Assembly: GCF_014645795.1 (NCBI RefSeq)
Contig: NZ_BMMK01000003.1
Location: forward strand, 62,001-126,000
Reading direction: 5' to 3'
From: Longimycelium tulufanense
GTDB lineage: Bacteria; Actinomycetota; Actinomycetes; Mycobacteriales; Pseudonocardiaceae
DNA length: 64,000 nt
Below are positions 26,449 to 52,909 of the stretch, piece after piece (positions within the stretch are counted from its first letter, which is position 1; every line of letters starts with the position of its first letter). Below the pieces are notes generated by a model. It saw only the letters and a program-made list of their open reading frames with translations. It ran no database searches and was not told where the DNA came from. Position numbers and translations under genes: made by a program.

Positions 26449-26453
26449 CCACG

Positions 26454-29169: not shown

Positions 29170-29181
29170 AGGAACCGGATA

Positions 29182-32100: not shown

Positions 32101-32910
32101 GACGGAACGACCGTGGCGGCCGGCGTCCAGGACGGAACGGTACAGCTGTGGGACGTGGTCAATCGCACCGAGATCGTTACACTCCGCGGGCACGGTGGAC
32201 CCGTCGTGGCGGGCGTGGCGTTCAGCCCCGACGGCTCGCTCCTGGCAACCACGAGCACCGACGGGACCCTGAAGCTGTGGGACGTCGCCCGCCGCGTCGA
32301 AGTCGCCACCATCCCCAGTCCCACCACCCACTTCACCGAAGTGAAGTTCGCGCCGGACGGGCGGACGGTGGCCACCGCCGGGGAGGACGGTGTGGTGCGG
32401 CTGTGGGACGTCGACACGCATCGCGAGCTCGCCATCCTCCACGGGCACACCGCCCCCATCCTCGGCATGGAGTTCCGGCCGGACGGGCGGGTCCTGGCGA
32501 CCGCTGGCGCCGACCAGACCGTGCGGACCTGGGATCTGGTCGAGCACCGGGAGCTGGCCACGCTCACCGGCCACACCGGACCGGTCGAGGGCCTGGCGTT
32601 CAGCCCAGACGGCCGCACGGTCGCCTCCACCGGTTACGACCGGACGGTGCGGTTGTGGGACACGGTCAACCAGACCGAGATCGCCACTCTCAGCGGACAC
32701 ACCGACCTCGTCGTCGGCGCGGAATTCGATCCGGACGGTACGGTCCTGGCCACCACCGGCCTCGATGGCACCACGCGGTTGTGGCGGCTCGACGCGGACC
32801 AGTCGGCCGTCCGGCTGTGCCGCCTGGCCGGTGACAACCTCACCGACGACGAGTGGCGGCGGCTCACCCCCGACGCCCAGCTCGACCCGGGCTGCCGGTC
32901 GGCGGACTGA
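29182..32910 (+). CDS. XRE-nSTAND NTPase with 14 WD40 repeats
   Basis: A protein of 1242 residues. Order: an XRE-like helix-turn-helix (residues 15-70: YRELSHRVHYSATTLCDAAG), a STAND NTPase with Walker A FGASGAGKSS (about 148-157) and Walker B LVLIVDQFEELF (about 230-241), one predicted membrane helix near residue 545 (RRLLTVLGVLLVLLAVATSV), then 14 WD40 repeats from about 626 to 1220, mostly ending RLWD. Fourteen repeats make two seven-bladed propellers. Such proteins are common in multicellular actinomycetes as signal-sensing switches or phage sensors. ATG 29182 fits the ribosome site GGAACC weakly; GTG 29197 is possible. The role here is unknown. Confidence 0.85.
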   Translation: MAREGVTPVPRPERSLDADATALTRFAADLRLLRQKAGTPTYRELSHRVHYSATTLCDAAGGKKLPSLAVALAYVRACGGDEGEWEQRWRAVAAESNTNGASAEATATESPYVGLAAFGTADADRFFGRECLVDNLTCQLRSGRFLALFGASGAGKSSLLRAGLIPQLQDAGWEHLLLTPGAHPLENCAAQLARLTGNTAHQLYLDLDRDERALHRVVLQALTDRPQSVDLVLIVDQFEELFTLCRDDAERDRFVAMLLAAAEAANSRARVVLGVRADFYGRCALHPGLARAVNAGQLLLGPMSTDELRRAITQPAARSGCTVEGALLAQLVAEAAGRPGVLPLLSHALRETWARRRGTALTLTGYQATGGIPHALALTAERAYQDLTEHQREIARSLFLRAVAPGEGTEDTKRRIGLDELDTEDPDTAAVVEALAATRLLTVDTDTVELSHEALITSWPRLRRWVETNREGLRVHRRLTEAAQSWAATGQDAALLHRGSRLAAAQEWARDNPTAVTALERAFLDASRDVEQQRGRRRRLLTVLGVLLVLLAVATSVVAVHQRRMVEAQHRQAQSRALAAKAMAILGVQPEAAVRLATRAFRLSPTREARSALLTADSGPFAARLVGHTDRVTGVVFSPDGNQVATSSRDRTVRLWDRGHRREVARFQGHTDAVQDVAFSPDGTLLASVGDDGTARLWSATERREVTVLGTGLGQVYRVRFSPDGRLVAGAGQTGVVHLWDVGSGARVTDVPTGSTGVNDLAFSPDGRTLVTAGADGKVRLWDVETRTETAAIAAHGNGATSVTFSPDGHLLATTGFDWTIRLWDVDTRQERTTIATDFGGVPRIAFSPDGQVLATAGGGGGKGINLWEISSRRKITSLSSDALTSAIAVSPDGATVAGDSGDYSVRLWHTRGTALRSSPFAAFTGVAFSPDGEILATGRTDGTLRLWDVPARREIGVLTGSDRPLGGVAFSPDGTTVAAGVQDGTVQLWDVVNRTEIVTLRGHGGPVVAGVAFSPDGSLLATTSTDGTLKLWDVARRVEVATIPSPTTHFTEVKFAPDGRTVATAGEDGVVRLWDVDTHRELAILHGHTAPILGMEFRPDGRVLATAGADQTVRTWDLVEHRELATLTGHTGPVEGLAFSPDGRTVASTGYDRTVRLWDTVNQTEIATLSGHTDLVVGAEFDPDGTVLATTGLDGTTRLWRLDADQSAVRLCRLAGDNLTDDEWRRLTPDAQLDPGCRSAD

Positions 32911-33685: not shown

Positions 33686-33742
33686 GTGGACCCCGTCAGG
33701 ACCGTCAACCACGCATCCGCCGAACGGGCGGCCTGGTTATGA
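33686..33742 (+). CDS. 18-residue leader peptide coupled to the permease
   Basis: GTG 33686 follows GGGAGGT at seven bases, the strongest ribosome site in this area. The frame encodes MDPVRTVNHASAERAAWL and stops at TGA 33740-33742, overlapping the ATG of the permease gene (33739) in an ATGA junction. The permease has no ribosome site of its own, so its translation probably depends on this leader. The peptide sits 54 bases after the riboswitch, where translation could be blocked or opened by RNA folding. Confidence 0.6.
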   Translation: MDPVRTVNHASAERAAWL

Positions 33743-34509
33743 CCAGCCTTGGCAGCGGTGCAGTGTTGGCCTCCGCAGGGATACTCGCCGGACTGGTCGG
33801 CACCGCAGGCGGCGTCACCTCCCTGATCTCCTACCCCGCCCTGCTCGCGGCGGGCCTTCCTGCTCTGTCAGCGAACGTGACCAACAATGTTGCGCTCGTC
33901 GCATGCTGGCCCGGTGCGGCCCTCGCATCCCAGCCTGAGCTGGCCGGGCAAGGACCGTGGTTGCGCCGCTGGCTGCCGCTCTCCGCGCTGGGCGGCGCGG
34001 CGGGCTCGATGCTGCTGCTGTCGACCCCTCCGGGCATCTTCGCCCGCGTCGTTCCGTTTCTGGTGGCCGTGGGCTCGTTGGCCCTGCTCGCCCAACCCTG
34101 GCTCGCCGCCCGGCACCAGAAGCACCGGCGCGGCCGTACGCAAGGAACGCGCGGCGTCGTCCTTCCGTTCGGGCTGATCGCCACGTCGGTGTACAACGGC
34201 TACTTCGGTGCCGGGTCCGGCGTGATGATCCTCGCCCTTCTCCTGATCACTGCCTCGCCCAGCCTGGCCACCGCCAACGCCTTGAAGAACATGCTCATCG
34301 GTTCCGCGGCGTTCATCTCCGCGACCACCTTCGCCGCCTTCGGGCCAGTGGACTGGGCGGCCGTCGCACCCCTTGGTGTGGGCATGTTCGTTGGCTCTAC
34401 GCTCGGGCCCCGGATCGTGCGTTGTCTCCCCGCCACCCTGCTGCGCTGGCTGGTGGGCGTGATCGGCATCATCCTGGCGATCCGGCTGTGGATTGCCCCG
34501 AGCGGCTGA
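33739..34509 (+). CDS. TauE/SafE-family permease
   Basis: A membrane protein of 256 residues with seven to eight helices and the two family repeats: LAGLVGTAGGVTSLISYPAL near the N-terminus and YNGYFGAGSGVMILALLLI at about residue 153. Members export sulfite, sulfoacetate or other small organic anions, but many are unassigned. It lies behind a ykkC-type riboswitch and a coupled leader, and beside the phosphonate genes with convergent orientation. It could export guanidine-related compounds or a phosphonate; the riboswitch favours the first. Confidence 0.82.
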   Translation: MTSLGSGAVLASAGILAGLVGTAGGVTSLISYPALLAAGLPALSANVTNNVALVACWPGAALASQPELAGQGPWLRRWLPLSALGGAAGSMLLLSTPPGIFARVVPFLVAVGSLALLAQPWLAARHQKHRRGRTQGTRGVVLPFGLIATSVYNGYFGAGSGVMILALLLITASPSLATANALKNMLIGSAAFISATTFAAFGPVDWAAVAPLGVGMFVGSTLGPRIVRCLPATLLRWLVGVIGIILAIRLWIAPSG

Positions 34510-34653: not shown

Positions 34654-37500
34654 TCAACTCCCGTTGTGCGCACCGGAGCTCCCACTCGGCAGGGCGCGCA
34701 GCAGGAGCTGCGCTAGATGCTCGGCGCGTCGGATGTCCCGGACGCCGCTCTGGCCGATCTGGGTCCGGCACGAGAACCCGTTCGCCAGGACGGCCGTGCC
34801 GGGGGACGCCGCCCGCAGCGTGGGGAAAAGTCCGCGCTCTGCCGCGGCGCGGGAGACCTCCCAGTGGCCAGGCTCGTAACCGAAGTTCCCGGCCATGCCG
34901 CAGCAGCCAGTCCGTACGACGTCGACCGCCACCCCCAGCCGGGCGAGCACGTCGGTCTCGGGCCGGTGCCCGTGGCCCGCCTCTTGGTGGCAGTGCGGCT
35001 GGAGTACGGCCGATCCGTTGAGCCTGCCGAAGGGCCAGGGGCCCTGGTGTCCGGCCACCACCTCGGCCAGCGTGCGGACCTGGTTGGGCAAGCTCCGCAC
35101 GGCGGCGGAGTCGGGCAGCAGCTGCGCCGCGGTCTCCCGAAGTGCCTGGGTGCAGGAGGGCTCGACACCAATGATGGTGCGACCCGCGCGCAGGTGGCCC
35201 TCCAGAGAGCGCACGGAGCGGGCGAGGACCTCGCGCGCCACCTTGAGCTGGCCGGTGGAGTACCAGGTGAGTCCGCAGCAGACGGGCCCGTCGGGGAGCG
35301 CCACGCGGTAACCCAGCGCCTCAAGGACCTGTGTGGCTGCCTGTGCGCCAGCCGGGTCGAGGAAGTTGCTGAACGTGTCGGGCCACAGCACGACGGTGCC
35401 GGACTCGGGGGCTGACGCGCGGGACCGCGTGCGGCGGGCGAACCACCGACGGAAGGTCTGCGGCGGAAGCGATATCAGGGGCCGGCGCGGCTCAAGACCG
35501 GCCACTACGCTCAGCCACCGGGACGGTGTCGGCCGGCTGGTCAGCCAGTTGAGCATACGAGGTGCCACGGAGGCGATCCGGGCGAGCACGGGTAGCCAGC
35601 CCAGTGTGTAGTGCGCGCGCGGCCGCAGCCGGAACCGGTAGTGGTGATGGAGGAACTCCGCCTTGTAGGTGGCCATGTCCACGTTGACGGAGCACTCGCT
35701 CTTGCATGCCTGGCAAGCGAGGCAGAGGTCGAGTGCGTCGCGTACCTGTTTGGAGCGCCAGCCGTCGGGGAGCGTCTCGCCGCGCAGCATCTCGCTGAGC
35801 ACCCGCGCCCGACCCCGGGTGGAGTGCACCTCGTCCTTCGTCGCCTGGTACGAGGGACACATGGTGCCGGAGGCGTCGCGGCAGCTGCCGACTCCGCTGC
35901 ATCGCTGCACGGCCCGGGCCAGCGAGTCCGAGTCGGCGTGCAGCCGCTGGACCAGTGGTAGCTCCAGGCGGTCGCGGCCGGGGCCTGGCCGGATGTCCGC
36001 GTCGAAGGGCACCGGGTTGACGATGATGCCCGGATTGAGTACCCCGGCGGGGTCCCAGATGTTCTTGAAGGCGGCGAAGGCACCGAGGAGCTCGGGGGAG
36101 TAGGTTCGCGCAAGCAGCTCCGACCGGGCCCTGCCGTCGCCGTGCTCGCCCGAGGCGCAGCCGCCGTGTGCCACCACGAGCTCCCCTGCCGCGGCGATGA
36201 AGTTCCGGTAGCTCGCCATACCGTGCTTGGACTCCAGGTCCCAGTCAATCCGCACGTGCAGGCAGCCTTCGCCGAAGTGTCCGGTGATGGTGCCGTTACA
36301 GCCGTGCTCGTCCATCAGGAAGTGCAGGTCCCGCAGATAGCTGGCGAGCCGCTTCGGTGGGACGGCGGAGTCCTCCCAGCCGGGCCAGGCGGCCCGTCCG
36401 TCGGCCATCCGGGTGGCGGTGCCGGCACCGTTGCGGCGGATAGCCCACAGTGCGGCAATCTGCCCGGGGTCGGTGGTGACCCGGCCGGGCACACCGGCCT
36501 GTCGGGCGAGCCGTCGGGCGTCCGAGACCGCGGCGGCATCGTTCGCACCCTGGACCTCGCAGTACAGCCAGGCCCTACCAGAGGGCAGCAGCTCGAGGCC
36601 CGGGGCGCGGCCGGGGCGCGATCGTAGTGCCTCGACCAGCGGAGCATCCAGGCCCTCCACCGTCAGTGCCCCGGCCTTGGCCAGCATGGGGGCGCACTCG
36701 GCGGCGGCGTAGACATCGGGGAAACCGAGCACCAGCAGGACACGGGCGGGCGGCACCCGAGTGAGCCGGAGTCGGGCGCCGAGCACAACCGCGCAGGTGC
36801 CCTCGCTGCCTACCAGGGAACGGGCGACATGGAAGCCCTTCTCGGGAAGCAGTGCGTCGAGGTTGTATCCCGATACTTGGCGGGTAAAACGGCCGAGTTC
36901 CGTGCGGAGCGCCGCGAGATACCGGTCGCGCAACTGCCGCAGCCGCAGGTCGATGTTGGCGTCTCCGCTGCCGCCGCGGGTGGCGCTGAGCACGCGGCCG
37001 TCGGCGAGCAGCAACTCGAGCCTGTCGGTGATGTCTGCCGTGGTGCCCCAAGCCACCGAGTGCGGGCCACACGCGTGGTTGCCCACCATGCCGCCCACGG
37101 TGCACCGGGAATAGGTGGACGGATCGGGGCCGACGGTCAGCCCGTGTGTGGCCGCGTGCTGGCGGAGCGCCCCGAGCACCACGCCGGGCTCGACGGTGGC
37201 CGTGGCGCCGTCCGGGTCCAGCTCGATGATCCGATTCATATGCCGGGAGAAGTCGAGAACCAGGCCGGTGCCGACAGCGTTTCCGGCTACGGATGTACCC
37301 CCACCGCGGCAGGTCACCGCGACGCCGTGCTCGGCGGCGATGCGCACGGCGGTGACCACCTCCGTCGTGTCCCGCGGCTCGAACACCGCCGCCGGCATGG
37401 CGCGGTAGATCGAGGCGTCGGAGGTGTAAGCGGCGCGGGTCGTCAGGTCGATGCGGGCCGTGGGCAGGCGGGAGCAAAGGTGACGGGCGAAGTCGTTCAC
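34654..37500 (-). CDS. FAD-linked oxidase with C-terminal Fe-S (D-lactate/glycolate dehydrogenase type)
   Basis: A protein of 948 residues that fuses a VAO-type flavoprotein to a GlpC-like iron-sulfur part. The FAD-binding half has CRGGGTSVAGNAVG (near 60-73), a TVGGMVGNHACG block and LVGSEGTCAVV. The Fe-S half has CLACQACKSECSVNVDMA and, near the end, paired CCG motifs (VCCGLTW, TGCCGMAGNFG). Such enzymes oxidise 2-hydroxyacids and pass electrons to the quinone pool. GTG 37500 is preceded by GAGAGGGGG and overlaps a short upstream ORF. In this cluster it may oxidise a phosphonate-bearing 2-hydroxyacid. Confidence 0.85.
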   Translation of the reverse strand: MNDFARHLCSRLPTARIDLTTRAAYTSDASIYRAMPAAVFEPRDTTEVVTAVRIAAEHGVAVTCRGGGTSVAGNAVGTGLVLDFSRHMNRIIELDPDGATATVEPGVVLGALRQHAATHGLTVGPDPSTYSRCTVGGMVGNHACGPHSVAWGTTADITDRLELLLADGRVLSATRGGSGDANIDLRLRQLRDRYLAALRTELGRFTRQVSGYNLDALLPEKGFHVARSLVGSEGTCAVVLGARLRLTRVPPARVLLVLGFPDVYAAAECAPMLAKAGALTVEGLDAPLVEALRSRPGRAPGLELLPSGRAWLYCEVQGANDAAAVSDARRLARQAGVPGRVTTDPGQIAALWAIRRNGAGTATRMADGRAAWPGWEDSAVPPKRLASYLRDLHFLMDEHGCNGTITGHFGEGCLHVRIDWDLESKHGMASYRNFIAAAGELVVAHGGCASGEHGDGRARSELLARTYSPELLGAFAAFKNIWDPAGVLNPGIIVNPVPFDADIRPGPGRDRLELPLVQRLHADSDSLARAVQRCSGVGSCRDASGTMCPSYQATKDEVHSTRGRARVLSEMLRGETLPDGWRSKQVRDALDLCLACQACKSECSVNVDMATYKAEFLHHHYRFRLRPRAHYTLGWLPVLARIASVAPRMLNWLTSRPTPSRWLSVVAGLEPRRPLISLPPQTFRRWFARRTRSRASAPESGTVVLWPDTFSNFLDPAGAQAATQVLEALGYRVALPDGPVCCGLTWYSTGQLKVAREVLARSVRSLEGHLRAGRTIIGVEPSCTQALRETAAQLLPDSAAVRSLPNQVRTLAEVVAGHQGPWPFGRLNGSAVLQPHCHQEAGHGHRPETDVLARLGVAVDVVRTGCCGMAGNFGYEPGHWEVSRAAAERGLFPTLRAASPGTAVLANGFSCRTQIGQSGVRDIRRAEHLAQLLLRALPSGSSGAHNGS

Positions 37501-37649
37501 GGGGTACACCCCCTCTCGAGCACGCCGTCCCGGCACAGCCACAGCGGTGGAGGGGCTAGCACTCGCAGCACGCCCACGACCGCGACGACGGCAGGCGGGG
37601 CGGGAGAGCCCGCCCCGCCGATGCTGCTGTCGACGCCCTGGAGCAGCAT
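37497..37649 (-). CDS. possible 50-residue coupled ORF
   Basis: ATG 37649 has GGAGG at 10 bases and GAAGG nearer. The frame begins MLLQGVDSSIGGAGSPAPPA, has a hydrophobic valine-rich middle, and ends at TGA 37497-37499, overlapping the GTG of the FAD oxidase (GTGA). Its own start overlaps the stop of the preceding 20-residue ORF (TGATG). Coupling at both ends suggests translation, but a perfect hairpin inside the frame (37594-37619) argues that this may simply be an intergenic spacer. Confidence 0.35.
   Translation of the reverse strand: MLLQGVDSSIGGAGSPAPPAVVAVVGVLRVLAPPPLWLCRDGVLERGCTP
37594..37619 (-). terminator. 11-bp perfect hairpin upstream of the FAD oxidase
   Basis: GGCGGGGCGGG and CCCGCCCCGCC pair perfectly around a 4-base loop. 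There is no U-run. It may attenuate read-through from the aminotransferase gene into the FAD oxidase gene. Confidence 0.45.
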
Positions 37650-37711
37650 CACCTTCTGCCTCCGATCAGCAGCACTCCCTGCTCGGCCTTCAATCCGACC
37701 AACGGGGTCAC
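37649..37711 (-). CDS. possible 20-residue coupled ORF
   Basis: GTG 37711 overlaps the aminotransferase stop (TGA 37708-37710), and the frame, VTPLVGLKAEQGVLLIGGRR, ends in a TGA sharing one base with the next ATG (37649). The chain of overlaps is neat, but 20 codons is short enough to occur by chance. No homology is known to me. Confidence 0.25.
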   Translation of the reverse strand: MTPLVGLKAEQGVLLIGGRR

Positions 37712-38847
37712 CCTTTTTGGCAGGCGGTTGCGTCTGCCAGCGCGGAGCCCAGCCGGGTGAGCCCCTCGTCCAACTGCTCGGCCGGAAGGGCGAATGAGAG
37801 CCTGATGTGCCCCGGAGCCCCGAAGGCCGCGCCGTCCACCACGGTGATCCGGTGCTTGTCGCGGAGCCATCCGGTAAGGTCGCGGCGCGCCTGCTCGGGG
37901 GCGTGGTCGGCCAGCCAGCCGGTCAGGTTGGGAAAGAGGAAGATCCCGCCCCCTGGTTCGGGACAACTGACCCCGGGCAGCTCTGCCAATCGACGCCGGG
38001 CGAGCACCAGCTGGTCCGCGAGGACCTTGCCGATCCCGGCCTGGATGGCCTCGCCATCCCTCAGAATGTCAGCCGCGATCGACTGGACCGCCGTCGACGT
38101 CCCGCCGAGCAGGTGCGAGGCGACGGCGGCCACGCGACGAGTGAGGCCCCCCGCGGTGATCGCCCATCCGGCGCGCAGCCCGGCGAGCGCGTGGCTCTTG
38201 CTGAGGCCGTCCACCACGACGCAGTGGTCGGGCAGGTGCGGGAGGACGTCGAGGATCGAGGGGGCCGGATCCGCGGTACAGGCCACGCCTCGGTACACCT
38301 CGTCGCACAGCACGGTGATTCCGTGGCGCTCGGCCCACGCGGTGGCGGCGGCGAGGTCTTCCGCCGGGGTCACCGCACCGTCGGGGTTGCGTGGAGAGTT
38401 GACCACGAGTACTCGGGTGCGTGGTGTGCGGTGCGCCTCCAGGGTGTCGAGGTCGATGCGCCCATCACCCACCTGGGCTGGCAGTGCGACGATGCTTCCG
38501 CCGGACCGCTTCACCAGTTCCGGGTAGCTCGCCCAGTACGGGGTGGGCAGCAGCACCTCGCCGCCGTCGTTGAGAAGGGTGGCCAGCACGGCGTAGATGG
38601 CGAGCCGCGCCCCGGGCGCGACCAGCACCTGTGTTGGGTCGACTTGGCCGCCGGCCGCGGCAACCCGACCGGCGACCGCTTCGCGCAGGTCCGCGGTGCC
38701 GGTGGGGGCCTGGTATGTCTGGTCAGCGCGCAGCGGTGCGCGTGCGGCGCCGCTCTGCGGATGGACCGGGATGCGGACGTCACCCGTAGAGAGCACCACC
38801 AGGCCGCTGTCTTGGTGCACTGCTGCGGTGGGGGACATGGCGGTCAC
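37708..38847 (-). CDS. class I/II PLP aminotransferase
   Basis: A fold-type I aminotransferase of 379 residues. The PLP lysine is in VVDGLSKSHALAGLRAGW (S-x-S-K-like), with NSPRNPDGAVTP (asparagine that contacts the cofactor) and CDEVYRGV (aspartate for the pyridine nitrogen) upstream, and a C-terminal arginine in HIRLSFA for the substrate carboxylate. It would swap an amino group onto a 2-oxoacid, here perhaps a phosphonate-bearing one. GTG 38847 overlaps the stop of the preceding dehydrogenase gene (GTGA), so the two are translationally coupled and probably act in series. Confidence 0.87.
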   Translation of the reverse strand: MTAMSPTAAVHQDSGLVVLSTGDVRIPVHPQSGAARAPLRADQTYQAPTGTADLREAVAGRVAAAGGQVDPTQVLVAPGARLAIYAVLATLLNDGGEVLLPTPYWASYPELVKRSGGSIVALPAQVGDGRIDLDTLEAHRTPRTRVLVVNSPRNPDGAVTPAEDLAAATAWAERHGITVLCDEVYRGVACTADPAPSILDVLPHLPDHCVVVDGLSKSHALAGLRAGWAITAGGLTRRVAAVASHLLGGTSTAVQSIAADILRDGEAIQAGIGKVLADQLVLARRRLAELPGVSCPEPGGGIFLFPNLTGWLADHAPEQARRDLTGWLRDKHRITVVDGAAFGAPGHIRLSFALPAEQLDEGLTRLGSALADATACQKG

Positions 38848-39878
38848 TTGCGCACCGCCTCATCGCACAGCAGGCCGACCGTTGGCGTCCGGCCTGCCAG
38901 CCGGTCCCGAACGAGCTCGGCGACCCGGCGCCGGCTGCTCGCCTCGGCATCCTCGGACAAGAAGGCGCGATGGCTGGTCACCACGGTGGCCGGATGCTCG
39001 AGCACCGGCTGCCAGCGCGAGTCGTCATGCGGGTTCTCGGGGAAGAAGACATCGAGTCCCGCGCCCGCGATCCAGCCCTCGTTGAGCGCCTTGCCGAGGG
39101 CGACCGGGTCGATCAGCTTGCCGCGTGCCGCGTTGAGCAGGTACGCGTCCGGCCGCATCAGGCGCAGTTGGTCGGCGCCGATCATCTGTTCGGTCTCCTG
39201 ATTCAGCGGACAGTGCAATGTCACCGTGTGCGACCGTTGGAGCAGTTCCGCCAAAGTGTCGACCGCCTTGGCGCGGTAACCCTCGGGGAGATCACGCCCA
39301 ACGTGTGGGTCGTAGACGAGGACCTGGCCGTAGAACGCGCTGAGCTTGGCCGCGACAGCCCGACCGATCCGTCCAAAGCCAACAATGCCGAGCGTGCGGC
39401 GGCTGATGCGGTTCGGGGTGCCGCCTGCGTAGATGGCGAAGGAGCCACTTTTCAGCGTCTGGTGCTGTGGAATCAGCCGTCGCTCCAAAGCGAGCCCCAA
39501 CGACGCGGTGTGTGCGGCCACTTCGTCCACGCAGTAGTCCGGCACGTGGTAGCCGAACAAGCCGCGCTCAGTGAGCAGCGGGACGTTCAGATTGTCAATG
39601 CCGACGCCCTGCCGGACGATACCGCGCAGCTGATCGCCGGCGGCGTCGAGCAGCTCGGGCGTGACCTGGCAGCGGTAGACGACGAGAATCTCGCTGCCCG
39701 CGACCCGCTCCAGCAACTCGGGGCAGTCGATCCGGTAGCGCCCGTCGGCGTGCGGGCCGAAACGCAGGTCCACGTCCCCGCCCAACACCTCGTGCTCCAC
39801 CGTGGCCCGACCTGCGTCGAACCTCCCGTCCGCGACCAGCCACGGCGGATCGGTGTAGGTGACAGTATGTGCGTTCAT
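38844..39878 (-). CDS. D-isomer-specific 2-hydroxyacid dehydrogenase
   Basis: An NAD-dependent dehydrogenase of 344 residues. The Rossmann motif is GIVGFGRIGRAVA (near 165-177). The catalytic set is the arginine in LNAARGKLID, the glutamate in DVFFPENPHDDSRW and the histidine in VTSHRAFLSEDAE. PhpE of phosphinothricin biosynthesis and other phosphonate-cluster enzymes belong to this family; they act on hydroxyphosphonates or phosphonolactate-like acids. ATG 39878 has GAGG eight bases upstream. It starts 137 bases after the reductase gene and is coupled to the aminotransferase. Confidence 0.87.
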   Translation of the reverse strand: MNAHTVTYTDPPWLVADGRFDAGRATVEHEVLGGDVDLRFGPHADGRYRIDCPELLERVAGSEILVVYRCQVTPELLDAAGDQLRGIVRQGVGIDNLNVPLLTERGLFGYHVPDYCVDEVAAHTASLGLALERRLIPQHQTLKSGSFAIYAGGTPNRISRRTLGIVGFGRIGRAVAAKLSAFYGQVLVYDPHVGRDLPEGYRAKAVDTLAELLQRSHTVTLHCPLNQETEQMIGADQLRLMRPDAYLLNAARGKLIDPVALGKALNEGWIAGAGLDVFFPENPHDDSRWQPVLEHPATVVTSHRAFLSEDAEASSRRRVAELVRDRLAGRTPTVGLLCDEAVRK

Positions 39879-40014
39879 CGTCGAGCCTCTATCTCTGTGT
39901 TTCTTCTGCCTGTTCTTCTTGGCCGACTCGCGGCGGCAGTCGGCCCGGCCGGTGTCCGGCCTTGGTTACCTGGCGTCGTACGAACGGGCGAGGACCGCCC
40001 GCGGACCCCTTGCT

Positions 40015-41235
40015 TCAGGAGCTGAGCGCTGCCAGCGCGTCCTCGACCGTGACGACCCGCGGGTTGTTGCCGGCCCGGCCGGAGTCCAGGGCCGCGTCCA
40101 GGATTGGTGCCCACTCGCGCGGGGCCAGCCGTAGGTCGGCCAGTGACTGCGGATAGCCGCCGAGTCCCAGCAGTCGTTCCAGCAGCGGCTCGATCGGGCC
40201 GCCGGTCTCCCGAACCGAGCGCTCCTGAACGTCGGAGACCAGGCCGCTCAGTCGTTCGGGGCCGTCGGGATGCCGGCAGTCGTCAGCCTCGGCCGCCTCG
40301 TTGTAGCCGAGAAGCCAGCGCAGATGTAGGGCCACGGCCACCCCGTGGGTGATGCCGAGACGCGCGGTCAGGCTGTAGGAGAGCGCGTGCGCGGCGGTGG
40401 TCCTGGTCTGGTTGATGGCCGCGCCCGAGAGCGCCGCACCGACGGCGAGCCGCCCGCGGATCTGCGGGTCGGCGAAGGAACCATGCTCCGCCACCGCGCC
40501 CAGCGCTGGGAACAGGTCCTGAAGAGCGCCCTGGGCAAGCTGCCGGGAGCCAGCCGTGGCAGCAGCGGCCCAGTACGACTCGATGGCCTGGCTCAGCGCG
40601 TCGAGACCGCTCGCCACAGCGCTCGGGCTGGGCAGCGACGCCGTCAGATCGGGGTCGACCAAGGCGACGTCGGACCGCAGCGCCGGATGGTCAAGGGAAT
40701 ATTTCTGCTCGCCTATGTACACCGTCGCGAAACTGGTCAGTTCGCTGCCAGATCCCGAGGTGGTCGGTACGAGCACGAGCGCACAGTCCTCGCGCATGCC
40801 GAGCAGCGCCGGATCGCGCAGGCAGTCGTACGTAACGGCCGGCTGCCGGTACAACGCCGCCGCCGACTTGGCCACGTCCAGGGAGCTACCCCCGCCGATG
40901 CCGACGACGGCATCGGGGCGGAACTCCCGAGCCGCCGCCACCGCCGCCTCGACCGTGGCGAGGTCTGGGTTGGGGCGAACCCCGCCGAACCGCCTTACGG
41001 CTAGGCGGCCCTCCAGCGCGACCACCGCGGCTTCGGCCCCGCAGCGACGGAACGCACCGCCACCGTGGACCACCAGGACGCGGCGCGCACCGAGCGCGTC
41101 GAGCACCTCGGGCAGCCGGCCAAGAGCACCGGGGCTGGCGAAGGCAGCCGGGTGCCCGGGCAGCCTGCGCAGGTCGGCCGAGGCCAATCCGGGCAGCACA
41201 TCGGGTGTCTGCACCGGGTCGCATGCCGCGGCCAT
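40015..41235 (-). CDS. phpC: phosphonoacetaldehyde reductase (iron-type alcohol dehydrogenase)
   Basis: An iron-containing alcohol dehydrogenase of 406 residues. It has VGIGGGSSLDVAKS and VPTTSGSGSELT for NAD(P) binding, and the metal ligands in SGLDALSQAIESYW (Asp), TTAAHALSYSL (His) and ITHGVAVAL (His). PhpC-type enzymes reduce phosphonoacetaldehyde to 2-hydroxyethylphosphonate, pulling the unfavourable PEP mutase step forward. ATG 41235 shares one base with the stop of a 29-residue ORF, and that ORF overlaps the decarboxylase stop, so the three are tightly coupled. The symbol is given by pathway logic; other Fe-ADH roles are possible. Confidence 0.85.
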   Translation of the reverse strand: MAAACDPVQTPDVLPGLASADLRRLPGHPAAFASPGALGRLPEVLDALGARRVLVVHGGGAFRRCGAEAAVVALEGRLAVRRFGGVRPNPDLATVEAAVAAAREFRPDAVVGIGGGSSLDVAKSAAALYRQPAVTYDCLRDPALLGMREDCALVLVPTTSGSGSELTSFATVYIGEQKYSLDHPALRSDVALVDPDLTASLPSPSAVASGLDALSQAIESYWAAAATAGSRQLAQGALQDLFPALGAVAEHGSFADPQIRGRLAVGAALSGAAINQTRTTAAHALSYSLTARLGITHGVAVALHLRWLLGYNEAAEADDCRHPDGPERLSGLVSDVQERSVRETGGPIEPLLERLLGLGGYPQSLADLRLAPREWAPILDAALDSGRAGNNPRVVTVEDALAALSS

Positions 41236-41324
41236 CACGCACCCCCTGCGCAGCTGGCGGGATTGCCGAGCGCGACCGGCTCGACGCCGTACCACTCGTC
41301 GTCGGTCGCCACCGCGGATGTCAT
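41235..41324 (-). CDS. 29-residue protein coupled between decarboxylase and reductase
   Basis: ATG 41324 overlaps the phosphonopyruvate decarboxylase stop (ATGA) and its TGA (41235-41237) overlaps the reductase ATG. The peptide begins MTSAVATDDEWYGVEPVALG and ends NPASCAGGA, with one cysteine three residues after a proline. About 24 of 28 third positions are G or C, matching real genes in this genome. No homologue is known to me. It could be a small subunit, a regulatory or leader peptide, or a peptide scaffold. Confidence 0.5.
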   Translation of the reverse strand: MTSAVATDDEWYGVEPVALGNPASCAGGA

Positions 41325-42457
41325 ATGATCCCCTCCGCGCGCCACGGCGCCGAGGCACCCAAGACAGCCGTGAACCGCCGGTGGATGTCGCCTGCGCTCA
41401 CTGCGGAGGTGGCACGGGGCGGGGCCGCGTCCACACTCGGCGCAGTCCGGACCGCCAACAGATGCGGCCCGGGTTCTTGGGCGATGCGGACGACGGCCGC
41501 CTTGAGTTCGGACTCCGTGCGACATAGCTCGTGGGTGCGGTACCCCGTGGCGCGGCCGAGGGATGCGAAGTCCACCCGCGTGGACCGGGTCGGCTGGGCG
41601 CCGGTCGACTCGTAGACGCCGTTGTCGAGGATGACGTGGACGAGGTTCGCGGGCGCCGAGGCACCGATGGTGGACATCGAACCCAGGTGCATCAGGGCAC
41701 CACCGTCACCATCGAACACCACGACGTGCTTCTGTTCGGGCCGGGCGAGGGCGATGCCGAGGCCGAAGGCCATGGCGTGCCCCATCGAGCCCTGCATGTA
41801 GAAGTTGCGGTCCGCATCCCCCAGCGCGAAGAGTTCCCGCGCGGTGTACCCGGTGGTGGCCACCGTCCGCGCGTCCGGCAGCCCCTCGAGCACCAACCGC
41901 ATGACGTCCCTGCGCTGCAAGCGCTCCTCGGCGGCCAAGTCGGGCGGCAAACAGGGTTTGGCCGAGCCAATCGCGCCCTTCTGCACCAGGACGAACGCCG
42001 GCCGGCCCTGGGCGAGCTCGGCCATGGCGGGCGTCAGCACCTCGTCCAAGACCGTGCTGGTCTCCCGCAGCGTCCAGTGCCGCACGCCCATTGCGTCCAG
42101 CATTGGGTGCGTGGACGTTCCCATGACAGCGTGCTGCGGCTCGTCCTGCCCGGGATCGGGCCACCCGCGCAGCGTCATGAAGACCAACACCGGGATGTCG
42201 TACGGAATCAGGAGCGAGGTGAGCGGGTTGATGAGGTTGCCGAATCCGGAGTTCTGCGCCAAAACCGCGCCGCGCCGTCCGGAGGCCGCGGCACCGGCCG
42301 CGATCGCCAGGGCCGCGCCTTCGTTGGCTGCCGGTACGTATCGGTTCTGCTCGGTGAGCTGGGCGATGGGGCCGGTGAAGTACGAACAGGGCACGCCTGT
42401 CACGAAATCCACGCCGTGCGCGGCCAGGCTCGCGGTGAAGTCCTCTGGTGTGATCAT
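41321..42457 (-). CDS. ppd: phosphonopyruvate decarboxylase
   Basis: A TPP-dependent enzyme of 378 residues. The N-terminal domain has VTGVPCSYFTGPIAQL and PAANEGAALAIAAG, where the glutamate activates the cofactor. The C-terminal domain has the GDG...N TPP/Mg motif (FDGDGGALMHLGSM then VILDNGVYESTG). It converts phosphonopyruvate to phosphonoacetaldehyde and CO2, the irreversible step that drives phosphonate synthesis. ATG 42457 overlaps the PEP mutase stop (ATGA), so both are co-translated. Length and motifs match the family closely; the related sulfopyruvate decarboxylases are less likely given PEP mutase next door. Confidence 0.92.
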   Translation of the reverse strand: MITPEDFTASLAAHGVDFVTGVPCSYFTGPIAQLTEQNRYVPAANEGAALAIAAGAAASGRRGAVLAQNSGFGNLINPLTSLLIPYDIPVLVFMTLRGWPDPGQDEPQHAVMGTSTHPMLDAMGVRHWTLRETSTVLDEVLTPAMAELAQGRPAFVLVQKGAIGSAKPCLPPDLAAEERLQRRDVMRLVLEGLPDARTVATTGYTARELFALGDADRNFYMQGSMGHAMAFGLGIALARPEQKHVVVFDGDGGALMHLGSMSTIGASAPANLVHVILDNGVYESTGAQPTRSTRVDFASLGRATGYRTHELCRTESELKAAVVRIAQEPGPHLLAVRTAPSVDAAPPRATSAVSAGDIHRRFTAVLGASAPWRAEGII

Positions 42458-43320
42458 GAGTCGAGCGCGGTCCACTCCTGAAGCTTCTGCAGCCGGAAGA
42501 CTTCAGCCATCGGTGCGATCTCGTCCTCCACCGGGGTGGAGGTGCCCTTCTCCCGGATCAGCTTCAGGGTGCTGCTCACCGCCTGCACCGTCGCGCGCAA
42601 CGCCTGGTTGGCATAGATGATGACGGAAACACCCGCGCGGTGGGCGTCCTCTGCGTGCCAGTCCGGATAGGTGGTCGGCACGATGACCACGGGAACCCGG
42701 CCGTCCCAGGCGGCCAGGAACTCCTGCACCTCCGAGGGGGCCTTGGCCTTGGAGTGCACCAGAACGGCGTCAGCGCCCGCATCCGCGTACATCTTGCAGC
42801 GTCGCAGCGCCTCGTCGGTGCCCATTCCGGCGATCAGAGCTTCGGTGCGGGCGATCAAATAGAACTCGGGACTCTCCTGGACAGACTTGGCGACCTGGAG
42901 CTTGCTGCAGAAGGCATCCGCGTCCAGGAGCAACTGCCCCCGGTCCACGAAGCTGTTCATCTTCGGAAAGTGCTTGTCCTCGATGCAGACAGCGGTGATG
43001 CCCATCCGCTCGTATTCACGCACCATGTGCGCGACATTCATGTTCCCGCCAAAACCGGTGTCCACATCTGCAACCACTGGAATGCTGCAAGATGCCTGGA
43101 TCTGGGCCGCTGCGGCGAGGTAGTCAGTCATCGTCAGCAAGCTCGCGTCCGGCAGGCAGCGCGCCGCCGAAATCTCCAGGCTCGACGCCCATACGGCGTC
43201 GAATCCGGTCTCCTGCACGAGCGCGGCCCCCAGTGGGCTGTGCGCACCCGCGAGGCGGACCAGTCCTCCTCGGTTCATCACCTGGCGGAACGACGGGGAA
43301 CAGGTAGAGCTACTGAGCAT
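42454..43320 (-). CDS. pepM: phosphoenolpyruvate phosphomutase
   Basis: A TIM-barrel enzyme of 288 residues from the PEP mutase/isocitrate lyase superfamily. The diagnostic E-D-K-x5-N-S motif is present as EDKHFPKMNS (residues 114-123), which separates true mutases from lyases. VVADVDTGFGG (83-92) gives the Mg-binding aspartates and DAVWASSLE the substrate pocket. It forms the carbon-phosphorus bond by rearranging PEP to phosphonopyruvate, the entry to nearly all natural phosphonates. It is 51 bases downstream of the methylphosphonate synthase-like gene and coupled to the decarboxylase. Confidence 0.95.
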   Translation of the reverse strand: MLSSSTCSPSFRQVMNRGGLVRLAGAHSPLGAALVQETGFDAVWASSLEISAARCLPDASLLTMTDYLAAAAQIQASCSIPVVADVDTGFGGNMNVAHMVREYERMGITAVCIEDKHFPKMNSFVDRGQLLLDADAFCSKLQVAKSVQESPEFYLIARTEALIAGMGTDEALRRCKMYADAGADAVLVHSKAKAPSEVQEFLAAWDGRVPVVIVPTTYPDWHAEDAHRAGVSVIIYANQALRATVQAVSSTLKLIREKGTSTPVEDEIAPMAEVFRLQKLQEWTALDS

Positions 43321-43371
43321 GGGGTCAATCTCCGGTTATGACTGCGTACTTTGGGCGGACGCGTTCGCGCG

Positions 43372-44745
43372 TCAGTACCACTGGCGGTCTTCATTGAGCA
43401 GCCGCTCGAGACTTCCGGGGTGCATCGAACCGAGCGCCACCCGCGCCTCGACGCCGATGCGGCCGGCGATGCGCAGGGCCAGCAAGCGAGCGGCGGACGC
43501 CTGTGCGGCCGGTGCGCTGTCGACTGTGAAGGACGTGGGGATGAACGGCATGACATAGGCCGAGTCGCCCGGGGCAAGCCGTGCCTCGTAACGCTTGCCC
43601 AGGTACTCCCACCGCATCGTCATCGGCGTCTCGCCGACGTTGTAGAGGTACTGGTGCTGATGCGTCGAGATCGCTGCGGCGTCGCTGTCCCGCAGCGGCT
43701 GGATTTCCAGGGCACGTGTGTACGGATGCAGCTTGTTTCCAGCCAACTGCCGCACCGAGTAATCAGCCTGCTGCGCCGATGGATATAGCCACCGACGGCT
43801 GTCAACGGCCCTGACCAGACTGATTCCTCCTGGCGAGTCCGGCGAGACCGGAAGCAGATCGCGAACCGAAACCCGCAGAGCCGCCGCAAGGGACTCGATT
43901 TCGGAATATGACGGAATCGCCGCACCTTCGACGAGCTCGGTGATGCGATCCTGTGTGACTTTGGATCGTTGTGCCACTTCCGCCACGGAAAGCATGGCCG
44001 CATCGATGTGCGAACGCAGCAGTCGGATCTGCGTTGTCCACGGGTTCTCGTCCCAGGCGAACTTCCTGGCGGTGCTGGGTCCTAAAGCAGCGAGCTCATG
44101 CTGGGCGTCACCCATGAGCTCACCGCCATAGGTCAGGGCGAGAATATAGGCTGGCTCGCTGTCGTTACGAGCAGTGAAGGTATGCGGCGAGAACGGCAGA
44201 CCCCAAATCGAGTCACCGGTTTCCATACGTAGCACATGGGACTCACCGTTCCATCGGTAGTAGTAGTTGACGGGGCCGACGAAATAGGTGAACTGGTAGA
44301 GAAGGTGCCCCTTGTTCCAGTGCACGTTGGGGTTGTTCGGATCATCGTCGTCGACCACCGACAACATCCTGATCCACTCGGGTCGGAAGGACGCGAGCCG
44401 AGACATGGCGGTGTCGCGGTACTCGTAATAGTCGATGTCTTCACGCTGGAACACCCGAGACGAGGACTTCGACGCCGCCACGTCGAGGACTATGACCCCC
44501 TCGGGGCAGTCGTTACGCACCGGCAACAGATCGCGTTCGTTCAGCGGCCAAACGGCGGCCGCCTTGCTGTGCACGGAACCCGGGATCTCGTGCCGTCCGG
44601 AAAAATACTCCTGGATCTGCTCCTCGGTGACGCCGAGCTCCTCGGCGCTCGCAGCCGTGTTGCGCTTCAGGTCGTTGGCAGCGCTGCGCAACAGCGCACC
44701 GGCGCGACGTCGGAAACCTTCGTCGTCGACTGAATGTACATTCAC
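43372..44745 (-). CDS. methylphosphonate synthase/HEPD-family non-haem iron enzyme
   Basis: A protein of 457 residues with two HTH-cupin modules, the layout of 2-hydroxyethylphosphonate dioxygenase (HEPD) and methylphosphonate synthase (MPnS). In the first cupin, NKGHLLYQFTYF gives H147-x3-Q151 and GLPFSPHTF gives H188. MPnS uses exactly this 2-His-1-Gln triad (H148, Q152, H190 in the archaeal enzyme), while HEPD has a glutamate from the GDS...PH strand instead; here that strand reads GDSIWGLPFSPH with no glutamate. K27 aligns with the HEPD active-site lysine. The second cupin has lost a ligand (FIPTSF). It should cleave 2-hydroxyethylphosphonate to methylphosphonate or hydroxymethylphosphonate. 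The start is GTG 44745, with GGGGAGG upstream. Confidence 0.85.
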   Translation of the reverse strand: MNVHSVDDEGFRRRAGALLRSAANDLKRNTAASAEELGVTEEQIQEYFSGRHEIPGSVHSKAAAVWPLNERDLLPVRNDCPEGVIVLDVAASKSSSRVFQREDIDYYEYRDTAMSRLASFRPEWIRMLSVVDDDDPNNPNVHWNKGHLLYQFTYFVGPVNYYYRWNGESHVLRMETGDSIWGLPFSPHTFTARNDSEPAYILALTYGGELMGDAQHELAALGPSTARKFAWDENPWTTQIRLLRSHIDAAMLSVAEVAQRSKVTQDRITELVEGAAIPSYSEIESLAAALRVSVRDLLPVSPDSPGGISLVRAVDSRRWLYPSAQQADYSVRQLAGNKLHPYTRALEIQPLRDSDAAAISTHQHQYLYNVGETPMTMRWEYLGKRYEARLAPGDSAYVMPFIPTSFTVDSAPAAQASAARLLALRIAGRIGVEARVALGSMHPGSLERLLNEDRQWY

Positions 44746-45797: not shown

Positions 45798-47042
45798 ATG
45801 CAGGTATCGCATCCGCACGTGCCCGTTGACGCGGGAACAGGTCACGTGATCGTCGTTCACCCGTGGCAGGACCGGTACGCTCACTACACGAGCTATTTGG
45901 ACCATTCCGCCAGGCCGGTCACTTACGTGACGACCGAGGTCGGGCAGAAAGGGGTACCTGTGGAAGCGGCCGCGGTTGTCGTTCTCGGCGAGACGACGGA
46001 CCAGGAAGCACTTGACAGCGCAGTATCCGATCTTGTGCGGAAGTTCGGCAACCCAGAGGGGATCGTAGCGCTGAAGGAGGCGGATCTTCCCGCTGTTTCG
46101 CGCCTCCGAGCTCAGTACGGGGCCCCCGGCGCTCGCCCTGAAGAGCTCTCGCGGTTTCTTGACAAGTACGAGATGCTACAGGCGGTCAGCGCTCTCGGCT
46201 TGCCGCTCCCTAAGTTCTCCTTGGCGCATTCAACCAACGAGGTTCTGGCGTTTGCCGAGGATGCTGGCTGGCCTCTGATCACCAAGAAGCTTTCCGGTAG
46301 TGCCAGTCAAGGAGTGTCTCAGCTCGACGGTCCGGAAGATCTGCATCGGGTACGTCTCGACGGCCCGATGGTGCTTCAGGAGTACCGGCAGCACCCCATC
46401 ATTCATGTCGACGGTTTCTGCAGCGGCGATCGCCTGGGCCCGTGGCGGGCTTCTCGCTATATCGGCACGTGCCTGGCATTCACCACAGGTGACCCGTTGG
46501 GGTCCGTCGAGATCGACGACCCTGCGATCCTGGATGTTGTGGGACGTTTCACGGAAGACCTCCTGACCGGGCTTAGCAGTAAACCGCGTGTCTTTCACCT
46601 TGAGCTTTTCTTGTATCAGGACCGTGACGGTGGCTGGAAATGCGAGTTCTTGGAAGTGGGATCTCGCACAGGCGGTGCCGAGGTCTCCTTTGTGTGGCGT
46701 GACGTCCATGGGATTGACCTCATGGGTGCCGAGACGGCCCTCCAGATGGGGCACGTGCCAAGCCTGCGGGGGTTCCACCAGGACGAGCCCGTTGCTGGCT
46801 GGCTTCTGGCACCAGTCCCGATGAAGCGGCCTTGCCGGGTGGTTGAAGCGAGTTCCATGGTAGGTCCTGGGCAGGCCTATGCAGAAAAGGTGACGTCTGC
46901 AGGCGGAGTTATCCCGGCAGGCGGATCTTTTTATGAACACGTCGGAGGACGATTTCGTTTCTCTGGCAGCTCCAGCTCTGAGGTGGAGAAGGCCGTGCGC
47001 CGCACAATCGAAGGGTTCCATCTTGTATGCGAGCCGGCATAG
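45798..47042 (+). CDS. ATP-grasp ligase
   Basis: A protein of 414 residues. The ATP-grasp core spans about residues 120-330: ITKKLSGSASQGVSQL (161-176) is the flexible glycine/serine loop with the ATP-binding lysine, LQEYRQHPIIHVDG (193-206) the second nucleotide segment, and CEFLEVGSRTGGAEV (about 284-298) the Mg-binding glutamate and following arginine. Such enzymes activate a carboxylate as an acyl phosphate and join it to an amine. In phosphonate clusters they commonly add amino acids. GGGAG lies eight bases before ATG 45798. Third-position GC is lower than in the phosphonate core, so it may have been acquired separately. Confidence 0.82.
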   Translation: MQVSHPHVPVDAGTGHVIVVHPWQDRYAHYTSYLDHSARPVTYVTTEVGQKGVPVEAAAVVVLGETTDQEALDSAVSDLVRKFGNPEGIVALKEADLPAVSRLRAQYGAPGARPEELSRFLDKYEMLQAVSALGLPLPKFSLAHSTNEVLAFAEDAGWPLITKKLSGSASQGVSQLDGPEDLHRVRLDGPMVLQEYRQHPIIHVDGFCSGDRLGPWRASRYIGTCLAFTTGDPLGSVEIDDPAILDVVGRFTEDLLTGLSSKPRVFHLELFLYQDRDGGWKCEFLEVGSRTGGAEVSFVWRDVHGIDLMGAETALQMGHVPSLRGFHQDEPVAGWLLAPVPMKRPCRVVEASSMVGPGQAYAEKVTSAGGVIPAGGSFYEHVGGRFRFSGSSSSEVEKAVRRTIEGFHLVCEPA

Positions 47043-47111: not shown

Positions 47112-48368
47112 ATGCATGGTGGTTCTCGCGTGGACGGCGCGGGAGAACAGATCGAAGTGTCCAACAGGTCGTGGCTGACCGGCTCCACGCGTCGCCTTCT
47201 CGTGGCCGGGGCAGTCGATTGGCTGGGTACCGGACTCCTCGTTGCGGCGTCTGCGGTGTATTTCACCCAGGTCGTTGGGATTCCGACTCGGCAGGTAGGT
47301 CTTGGCCTGACACTCGCTGGTGTCCTCGCGATGTCGGCGGCCGGGCTCGTGGGCATGCTGGCGGACCGATTCGGCGTGAAGCGGGTGCTGATCGGCCTCT
47401 ACCTGGTGCGCGCCGGAGCAACGTTTGCCTACATGGCCGTCACTGGGTGGTTGGGATTGGTCGGCGCAGCAGTGTTTCGACTGCTCGGCGATCAGGCGAC
47501 ATCTCCCCTGGTCCAGTCTCTGGTCGCCGAGGTCACCGAGGACGGGAACACCAGGGTCCGGATCATGGCCTCCTACCGAGTCGTGGCCAACGTCGCGACG
47601 GCCGTCAGCACTCCCTTGGCCGGCTATGCCATTGCAATAGGTACGTACCAAGCATTTGCCTTCTTACTGATCGGCAACGCGTTCGCCTTCGTCGCTACCG
47701 CAGTCCTCCTGATGTGGATGCCTGCCGGAGTACGGCGACGGTCCCGCCCCACCGCAACGCCAAAGGCTGCTGTGATACGCGATGGAACCCTGCTCAGCCT
47801 GACTGGAGTCGACGGCTTGCTGGCCTTATGGCAGCCTGTCCTCTCGATCGCGATGCCCCTGTGGATCGTAGCAAGCACAGACGCCCCCAAGTTCATGGCC
47901 GGCGTACTCTTCGCACTAAACACGATCGGCTGCATCGTTTGCCAGGTCTCTGCAGCCCGGCTGACATCACGAATCAGACTGGCCACCCGATCCTATACGG
48001 CCGTGCCCCTACTGTTGTTGGCCTCCTGTGGCTTCTTCGCAGCATCAGGATCCAGCCACGGGGGAGCTACCATCGCCTTACTCGTGGCAGCGGTCGTCAC
48101 GCTCACCGGCGCTGAACTACTTCAGACCAGTGCTTCCTGGACGCTGTCCTACGCTATCGCGCCAGATGAAAAGAGAAGCCAGTACCTGTCCGTATTCGGC
48201 CTGGGGCGAGCCGCCTCCAGAAACCTCATCGGTCCCCTGGTGTTGACAACTGTGGTCACTATGCCTCATGCACAGGGATGGTTCCTTCTGGCACTGGGAT
48301 TCCTGCTCGTCACAGGAGTTACCTACGTGGTCGGGCGTAAGTGTACCCAGGTGCCCTCTCGAGCCTGA
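47112..48368 (+). CDS. MFS transporter (12-TM)
   Basis: A protein of 418 residues with 12 predicted helices: RLLVAGAVDWLGTGLLVAAS near the start, motif A as GMLADRFGVKRVLIG, and a C-terminal half starting after a basic loop (GVRRRSRPTATPK). It lies 69 bases after the ATP-grasp gene on the same strand and shares its lower GC bias, so the two form a transcription unit. Export of the ligated product or self-resistance is the simplest reading. It ends just before an ISL3 remnant. Confidence 0.82.
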   Translation: MHGGSRVDGAGEQIEVSNRSWLTGSTRRLLVAGAVDWLGTGLLVAASAVYFTQVVGIPTRQVGLGLTLAGVLAMSAAGLVGMLADRFGVKRVLIGLYLVRAGATFAYMAVTGWLGLVGAAVFRLLGDQATSPLVQSLVAEVTEDGNTRVRIMASYRVVANVATAVSTPLAGYAIAIGTYQAFAFLLIGNAFAFVATAVLLMWMPAGVRRRSRPTATPKAAVIRDGTLLSLTGVDGLLALWQPVLSIAMPLWIVASTDAPKFMAGVLFALNTIGCIVCQVSAARLTSRIRLATRSYTAVPLLLLASCGFFAASGSSHGGATIALLVAAVVTLTGAELLQTSASWTLSYAIAPDEKRSQYLSVFGLGRAASRNLIGPLVLTTVVTMPHAQGWFLLALGFLLVTGVTYVVGRKCTQVPSRA

Positions 48369-50830: not shown

Positions 50831-52084
50831 GTGCTGGTGACAGCCAACGACAAGTTCTTCCAGAAGAAACAGGCGCTTGCTGTGCTCAAGCACGGCATCC
50901 TGCGCCGCTACCTCCCGATCTACGCCACGATGACTGGTTCTACCAGCGAGAGCGGGAGGGTGGTGTATCTCGACGGTTATGCGGGGCCCGGGCGCTACGA
51001 ACCGGAAGAACCGGGAGGTGTCGGAGCGCCAGGTTCTCCCCTCTTGGCAGTGGAGACAGCCAAGAGAGTCCAGGGTTGGAAGCGCGACTTGCACTGCGTC
51101 TTTGTCGAGCGAGATCCCAGCTATGTAGGGAACTTGAGAGCTGTTCTTGCGGAGGCAGCGCCGGAGGGGATGCGGTACGACGTTCTGCCTGGCGACGTGA
51201 AGGACCGGCTTGGTGAGGCGCTCGATCTAACCGGAGACAGGCCGTTGTTTGCCTTCCTCGACCCGTTCGGCACCGCACTTCCGTACCAGGACATGGTGGA
51301 GCGACTGTTGGGACGCGGGACTGCGCTCAAGACCGAGGTGCTACTCAACTTCAATCTCGGATCCGTCTGGCGGATCGGTGGTCTCCTCACCGGCGACGAG
51401 GCGGAACCGAACGGCGAGAACGGGCGCCGTGAGGCCGCCATTTCCCGGGTCGACGCGTTCCTCGGCGGGGACTGGTGGCGCGAACGGTTCATGGCGGCAC
51501 GCCGGGGCGAGGTGGTCGCTTCCCGCGCAGCACAGGAGGTGGGCCGCGAGTTTTGCCAGCGGATCGGCAATGATGCTGGCTGTGGCTCCTTTACCGTTCC
51601 CATCCGCCGCCACCCAAACCATGAGCCTCTCTTTCTGATGATTCTCTTCTTCCGGCATGACGCCGCCCCTTACCAGTTCAACGAGGCAGTCTCGATGGCA
51701 AACGCGGAGTGGCGGGGACTGTGGCGGGCCCGAGATCTGGACGCCGATCTGCGGGCCGACCGGGAACGCCGGGGCGGACAGGAAGACCTATTCGGCAACT
51801 CGTTGATCATGGACTACTCCGAGCAGGAAGCACAGCGGGCGGAGACGTTGCTCGAGAATCAGTGGATCGAGGAGGTTGCCGAGAACTTGAGGGCACTGAC
51901 CATCCAGCAGGTGGCAATCAAGATCCGGGAGAACATGTCCGGCATCTTCGGACGGACGCTGGGAATGGCGCGTGAAAGACATCTCCGCAAGGCGTGGGAC
52001 CAGCTCGCGGAGGAGGATGTCTTGGACGCCAGGCCGAAGAAGGGGAAGATGCTTTGGCAGACGATCTACCGCAGGGGCAGGTAG
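50831..52084 (+). CDS. tcmP: three-Cys-motif partner protein TcmP
   Basis: A protein of about 417 residues matching the TcmP family: KKQALAVLKHGILRRYLPIY at the N-terminus, VVYLDGYAGPGRYEPEEPG (near 45-63), CVFVERDP and FAFLDPFGTALP (about 135-147). The fold resembles a Rossmann-like methyltransferase, but the function is unknown. Its family is defined by its companion, a protein with a three-cysteine motif. Here that companion, a DUF5131 protein, lies tail-to-tail with three bases between the stops. The pair is typical of mobile or defence-rich DNA. GTG 50837 is an alternative start. Confidence 0.88.
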   Translation: MLVTANDKFFQKKQALAVLKHGILRRYLPIYATMTGSTSESGRVVYLDGYAGPGRYEPEEPGGVGAPGSPLLAVETAKRVQGWKRDLHCVFVERDPSYVGNLRAVLAEAAPEGMRYDVLPGDVKDRLGEALDLTGDRPLFAFLDPFGTALPYQDMVERLLGRGTALKTEVLLNFNLGSVWRIGGLLTGDEAEPNGENGRREAAISRVDAFLGGDWWRERFMAARRGEVVASRAAQEVGREFCQRIGNDAGCGSFTVPIRRHPNHEPLFLMILFFRHDAAPYQFNEAVSMANAEWRGLWRARDLDADLRADRERRGGQEDLFGNSLIMDYSEQEAQRAETLLENQWIEEVAENLRALTIQQVAIKIRENMSGIFGRTLGMARERHLRKAWDQLAEEDVLDARPKKGKMLWQTIYRRGR

Positions 52085-52087
52085 GCC

Positions 52088-52834: not shown

Positions 52835-52909
52835 GTTGTCACCACCCTTCCACGCCGACGATCACCGTAGAGGTTGCTCTTCAAGCCGCTCGGCGACCTC
52901 CCACAACCT

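Follow-up and report, generated by a model that had tools for sequence, protein, structure and literature searches.

The six-gene run and the argolaphos genes

The nearest described system to the locus considered here is the argolaphos cluster of Streptomyces monomycini. As reported in PMC8976061, its six genes alpG–L yielded aminomethylphosphonate in S. lividans, at first in small amount, and in vitro AlpK and AlpL together took hydroxymethylphosphonate to aminomethylphosphonate. AlpK is listed there as cd05299 and AlpL as an aminotransferase (PMC8976061). The report also describes purified AlpG, which bears a Tyr-Gly pair, as turning 2-hydroxyethylphosphonate (2-HEP) into hydroxymethylphosphonate, and terms that pair, Tyr158-Gly179, diagnostic of class II HEPD (PMC8976061). 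We analyzed a stretch of 64,000 nucleotides of Longimycelium tulufanense (contig NZ_BMMK01000003.1, positions 62,001 to 126,000), here called the window, which encodes a comparable run of genes.

We predict, with a probability of about 0.9, that the six genes at 37708–44745 on the minus strand form a cassette for aminomethylphosphonate like alpGHIJKL of the argolaphos cluster, with a class II HEPD. The six gene kinds, their order and their placement on a single strand are the same as those given for alpGHIJKL in Table 1 of PMC8976061. The genes, in the order of transcription, are as follows.

43372–44745, minus strand: class II HEPD-like enzyme, alpG-type (457 residues; H147, Q151, Y161, G182, H188)
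42454–43320, minus strand: phosphoenolpyruvate mutase PepM, alpH-type (PF13714, EDKHFPKMNS motif)
41321–42475, minus strand: phosphonopyruvate decarboxylase, alpI-type (above the TIGR03297 cut-off)
40015–41358, minus strand: iron-containing alcohol dehydrogenase (Fe-ADH), probable phosphonoacetaldehyde reductase, alpJ-type (family match, below the TIGR03405 cut-off)
38844–39878, minus strand: CtBP/PGDH-type 2-hydroxyacid dehydrogenase, alpK-type (family match and homologues)
37708–38847, minus strand: pyridoxal phosphate-dependent class I/II aminotransferase, alpL-type (family match and homologues)

An earlier note on this DNA had described the first four genes as an actinomycete operon for a phosphonate natural product. 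The operon stands, as do its four open reading frames and their families, with PepM and Fe-ADH scoring below the nearest NCBIfam cut-offs. Its extent does not, as two further downstream genes on the same strand, those of the dehydrogenase and the aminotransferase, lie outside the coordinates of that note and had been overlooked.

PepM matches PF13714 at 190.1 bits, with EDKHFPKMNS beginning at residue 114, and the phosphonopyruvate decarboxylase reaches 371.4 bits against a TIGR03297 cut-off of 312.5. No NCBIfam model matched the HEPD-like cupin enzyme. The best solved relatives of the 2-hydroxyacid dehydrogenase are CtBP proteins, the dehydrogenase group that we take cd05299 to denote. The dehydrogenase gene shares 4 bases with the aminotransferase gene, and the remaining gaps, starting from the HEPD gene, are 51, -22, -38 and 136 bases. 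The true start of the Fe-ADH gene is probably near 41235–41238 (giving 406–407 residues) rather than at 41358, and the gap of -38 is probably an artefact of the start of this frame. Excluded from the cassette are a 962-residue flavin adenine dinucleotide (FAD)/Fe-S protein (34654–37542) and a TauE-like gene (33739–34509), because neither had a tblastn match at E 1e-6 among the nine related loci described below.

We infer by analogy that the window proteins catalyze the same chemistry as AlpG–AlpL. PepM would convert phosphoenolpyruvate to phosphonopyruvate, the decarboxylase would form phosphonoacetaldehyde, and Fe-ADH would reduce this to 2-HEP. The class II HEPD, using Fe(II) and O2, would then cleave the C-C bond of 2-HEP and release hydroxymethylphosphonate; formate is the co-product of HEPD cleavage. 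The CtBP-type dehydrogenase is predicted to oxidize hydroxymethylphosphonate to phosphonoformaldehyde, which the aminotransferase would convert to aminomethylphosphonate. A divergently encoded ATP-grasp-like protein may couple aminomethylphosphonate to an amino acid, and an MFS protein may export the final product.

Active site of the HEPD-like enzyme

In the alignment, H147, Q151 and H188 occupy the ligand positions and G182 falls in the column of Ile184 of methylphosphonate synthase (MPnS), in agreement with the H147-x3-Q151, H188 and glycine of the earlier reading. The class I HEPD PhpD (3g7d) was not found in the PDB by a single-sequence search at E up to 10, and was reached distantly (46.1 bits) by a profile of eight family members. 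In the profile alignment, counted by eye, PhpD Glu176 aligns with Gly182 and PhpD Ala133 with Gln151. On this alignment, the predicted site is of the 2-His-1-Gln type and is without the class I glutamate ligand. The earlier note held that HEPD uses a 2-His-1-Glu triad. This is true of PhpD, but the Streptomyces albus HEPD 6b9r has His, Gln and His. The note had also proposed to look for a glutamate in the HEPD position as evidence against methylphosphonate. None is present, as glycine occupies the column of the metal ligand Glu176; however, the check was mis-set, because class II HEPDs likewise lack that glutamate.

According to the earlier note, the operon may yield methylphosphonate or a relative of it. 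On such a reading, the cupin enzyme would be an MPnS and the actinomycete would form methylphosphonate or one of its esters. The enzyme does carry the same His-Gln-His set as MPnS and lacks a glutamate of the HEPD type, and it is 37.7% identical to MPnS 6b9s over 435 positions (320.5 bits). However, the closest PDB chain is 6b9r (448.6 bits, 50.8% identity), deposited as the HEPD of S. albus in complex with 2-HEP and Fe(II), and this chain has the same residue set. The His-Gln-His set is present in all 12 aligned rows (the window, nine related loci of which L002 is partial, 6b9r and 6b9s) and therefore does not discriminate between MPnS and these HEPDs. A Tyr-Gly pair occurs in 10 of the 12 rows (Tyr161-Gly182 of the window, eight of the nine related loci, and 6b9r), whereas 6b9s has Phe162-Ile184 in its place and L022 has His-Thr. 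The equivalents of MPnS Phe162 and Ile184 in the window enzyme are thus Tyr161 and Gly182, spaced by 21 residues, as are Tyr158 and Gly179 of AlpG. Hydroxymethylphosphonate also suits the downstream dehydrogenase and aminotransferase as a substrate; methylphosphonate as the product would presumably leave these two enzymes with nothing obvious to act on. The claim that the active site points to methylphosphonate is therefore set aside, and we regard this product as highly improbable. It keeps a small probability because the window enzyme is known from its sequence alone. Most likely, the enzyme is class II HEPD-like and is predicted to give hydroxymethylphosphonate.

A tree of 11 rows, calculated without the partial L002 row and the PhpD segment and small in that it includes one known MPnS, sets its nine Tyr-Gly rows apart from MPnS and L022 (branch support 100/99), which also argues against an MPnS. 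When the PhpD segment served as the outgroup in an earlier tree, four of nine inner branches were open and MPnS was not separated from the Tyr-Gly rows. The predicted structure of the HEPD-like protein, made from an eight-row alignment, is poor (mean pLDDT 60.6, pTM 0.33). A structural search with this model placed HppE-type entries at the top, with MPnS at Z 13.3, S. albus HEPD at 12.6 and PhpD E176H at 10.8 among the 50 matches listed. The scores of MPnS and S. albus HEPD are too alike for the search to decide between them.

Related loci and the possible end product

Nine loci (L001–L005, L021, L022, L027 and L028) were compared with the window by tblastn. The contig scan was pattern-limited (27 stretches matched, five loci confirmed) and the larger genome searches scored four candidates per genome; thus, rarer relatives may be missed. 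The window's genus is represented by one genome. Within the order, one of 397 genomes gave a match, namely that of the window, and within the class three of 394 did, the window's own included. The genus of G751 gave matches in one of 35 genomes (G751 itself) and that of G750 in four of 392, two of which are the known L001 and L003. The plasmid search gave no matches.

The full six-gene run occurs in two of the nine loci, L021 and L028. Homologues of the dehydrogenase are 69–71% identical in six of the nine loci, with second matches of 30–32% in three of those stretches. Aminotransferase homologues occur in three of the nine (56–63% identity). L028 also bears YqcI/YcgG, NDK, GNAT, nucleotidyltransferase, ATP-grasp and MFS genes and is therefore argolaphos-like, and L021 also bears GNAT, NDK and MFS genes. 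Within the stretch examined, L003, L004 and L005 have, of the six, the HEPD, Fe-ADH and dehydrogenase genes only, and L027 has five of the six, without the aminotransferase. The dehydrogenase thus seems to be used in pathways that have no aminotransferase. This would suit a pathway in which a class II HEPD gives hydroxymethylphosphonate and the dehydrogenase takes this further, to phosphonoformate or some other final product, with the aminotransferase acting in another step. Phosphinothricin-like pathways offer a precedent for a dehydrogenase leading to phosphonoformate. We consider such a route improbable for the window, given that its aminotransferase gene overlaps the dehydrogenase gene and that the encoded protein is 56–57% identical to its counterparts at the corresponding position in L021 and L028. 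Furthermore, the sole match of that aminotransferase class in the genomes of L001–L005 is at the L002 locus itself (449.6 bits, 63%). The next best reaches 208.8 bits and 37%, and short pieces of 76 residues reach up to 40%.

Two candidate tailoring and export genes are encoded divergently from the cassette.

45798–47042, plus strand: ATP-grasp-like protein, possible peptide ligase (414 residues; weak matches)
47112–48368, plus strand: MFS transporter, possible exporter (family match)

PDB matches of the ATP-grasp-like protein include L-amino acid ligases (E 2e-4 to 0.015). It is 26% identical over 317 residues to the ATP-grasp protein of L028 (8e-13) and 26% identical to a stretch of L003 (7e-8). 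A single-sequence structure model of it was of no use (pLDDT 35.1). The sole match of the MFS transporter among the nine loci is in L002 (28–35%).

The matching order of the six cassette genes, along with the ATP-grasp-like and MFS genes, could suggest that the product is argolaphos or a close analogue. However, YqcI/YcgG had no match in the whole window genome (0/1), whereas the control search gave matches in 2 of 14 genomes. Nor were relatives of the GNAT, NDK, nucleotidyltransferase and MFS proteins of L028 and L021 identified in the window at E 0.01, a search confined to the window and not extended to the rest of the genome. Argolaphos itself is therefore unlikely, and we allow the argolaphos-or-analogue product only the slightest chance. 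Our likeliest guess is instead an aminomethylphosphonate–amino acid conjugate other than argolaphos, which the ATP-grasp protein would make. More specifically, the conjugate may be undescribed, with the ligase at 45798–47042 forming the amide in place of the argolaphos GNAT ligases; we put this forward tentatively, at somewhat less than even odds. The argolaphos GNAT ligases are tRNA-dependent.

Several observations weigh against an aminomethylphosphonate cassette with these tailoring genes. PepM scores 291.9 bits, below the NCBIfam PEP mutase cut-off of 319.55, and Fe-ADH scores 194 against the 423.7 of TIGR03405, the nearest phosphonate-linked NCBIfam model. The 136 bases between the Fe-ADH gene and the start of the dehydrogenase gene mean that the dehydrogenase and aminotransferase could form a separate transcript. 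In seven of the nine related loci, the stretch examined does not contain the complete run. ATP-grasp family models match only residues 56–196 of the ATP-grasp-like protein, weakly and below cut-offs. The third-position guanine-plus-cytosine (GC) content of the ATP-grasp-like and MFS genes (0.67 and 0.70) is lower than that of the cassette (0.76–0.88), so these genes may not belong to the cluster. In the tree, the clustering of the Tyr-Gly group was matched by 48 of 500 label shuffles, and L022 is a long branch. With a small tree and one MPnS, this means that the tree backs the residue evidence and could not carry the case alone. The likeness to AlpG–AlpL rests on the descriptions in Table 1, with L028 as their sequence stand-in. 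The final genes of L028 run nucleotidyltransferase, GNAT, MFS, whereas Table 1 of PMC8976061 has nucleotidyltransferase, MFS, GNAT.

Three of the related loci have features of their own. Of the loci compared, L001 (1937–5898, Streptomyces diastatochromogenes NRRL B-1698), on a 5.9-kb contig, has the intact HEPD relative most similar to the window enzyme (62%). Its HEPD gene directly precedes an adenylation-domain/nonribosomal peptide synthetase-like gene, as judged from the translation, and the locus perhaps encodes another HEPD-linked phosphonate pathway. L002 (10001–12957, Streptomyces sp. PH10-H1) is a degraded cassette relative in which the HEPD gene is spread over two frames and contains a stop, while a fragment of PepM continues directly into the aminotransferase. 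L022 (9954–11288, plus strand, genome G682 of the same class) encodes an HEPD/MPnS-family enzyme 34–36% identical to the window enzyme, 6b9r and 6b9s. It has His-Gln-His ligands with the His-Thr pair, and PepM, decarboxylase, Fe-ADH and methyltransferase genes adjoin; neither the dehydrogenase nor the aminotransferase was matched there by tblastn. Judged from its aligned residues, the L022 product is not guessable from the known pairs, and this enzyme is a better candidate than that of the window for an unusual activity.

Other features of the window and comparison with known systems

Elsewhere in the window, 23884–28193 encodes an asparagine-synthase-like protein (222.5 bits to the albusnodin/ikarugamycin macrolactam cyclase model, cut-off 300) followed by an ABC transporter, and is perhaps a lasso-peptide cluster. 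An nSTAND1 NTPase with WD40 repeats (1462 residues) is encoded at 28522–32910. At 50831–52834 a gene for the three-Cys-motif partner protein TcmP adjoins a convergent gene for a DUF5131 protein, with a DDE transposase match at 52717–53544.

The window illustrates a trap in genome mining. The 2-His-1-Gln site is common to class II HEPDs and therefore, taken alone, is no marker of methylphosphonate synthesis, and hence of a methane source. Class II HEPD and MPnS are told apart by the Tyr-Gly or Phe-Ile pair together with the neighbouring genes. Aminomethylphosphonate is a known antibiotic building block. What is new here is one more probable cluster for it, possibly with a new tailoring set that includes a different set of ligases, which makes the locus a candidate source of a new phosphonate natural product.

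Among characterized enzymes, PhpD (3g7d) is a distant relative that has Glu176 and Ala133 where the window enzyme has Gly182 and Gln151. MPnS (6b9s and 6b9t, from Nitrosopumilus maritimus) belongs to one family with the window enzyme and has ligands of the His148-Gln152-His type, but differs in the Phe-Ile pair. The S. albus HEPD 6b9r, whose activity is taken from its deposited name, shares both the His-Gln-His ligands and the Tyr-Gly pair. Of the argolaphos accessory genes, YqcI/YcgG has no counterpart in the window genome, and relatives of GNAT, NDK and nucleotidyltransferase were not found in the window. The likeness lies in the six cassette proteins, with lengths of 457, 288, 384, about 406, 344 and 379 residues in the window and of 444, 290, 379, 402, 348 and 374 as listed for AlpG–AlpL (PMC8976061).

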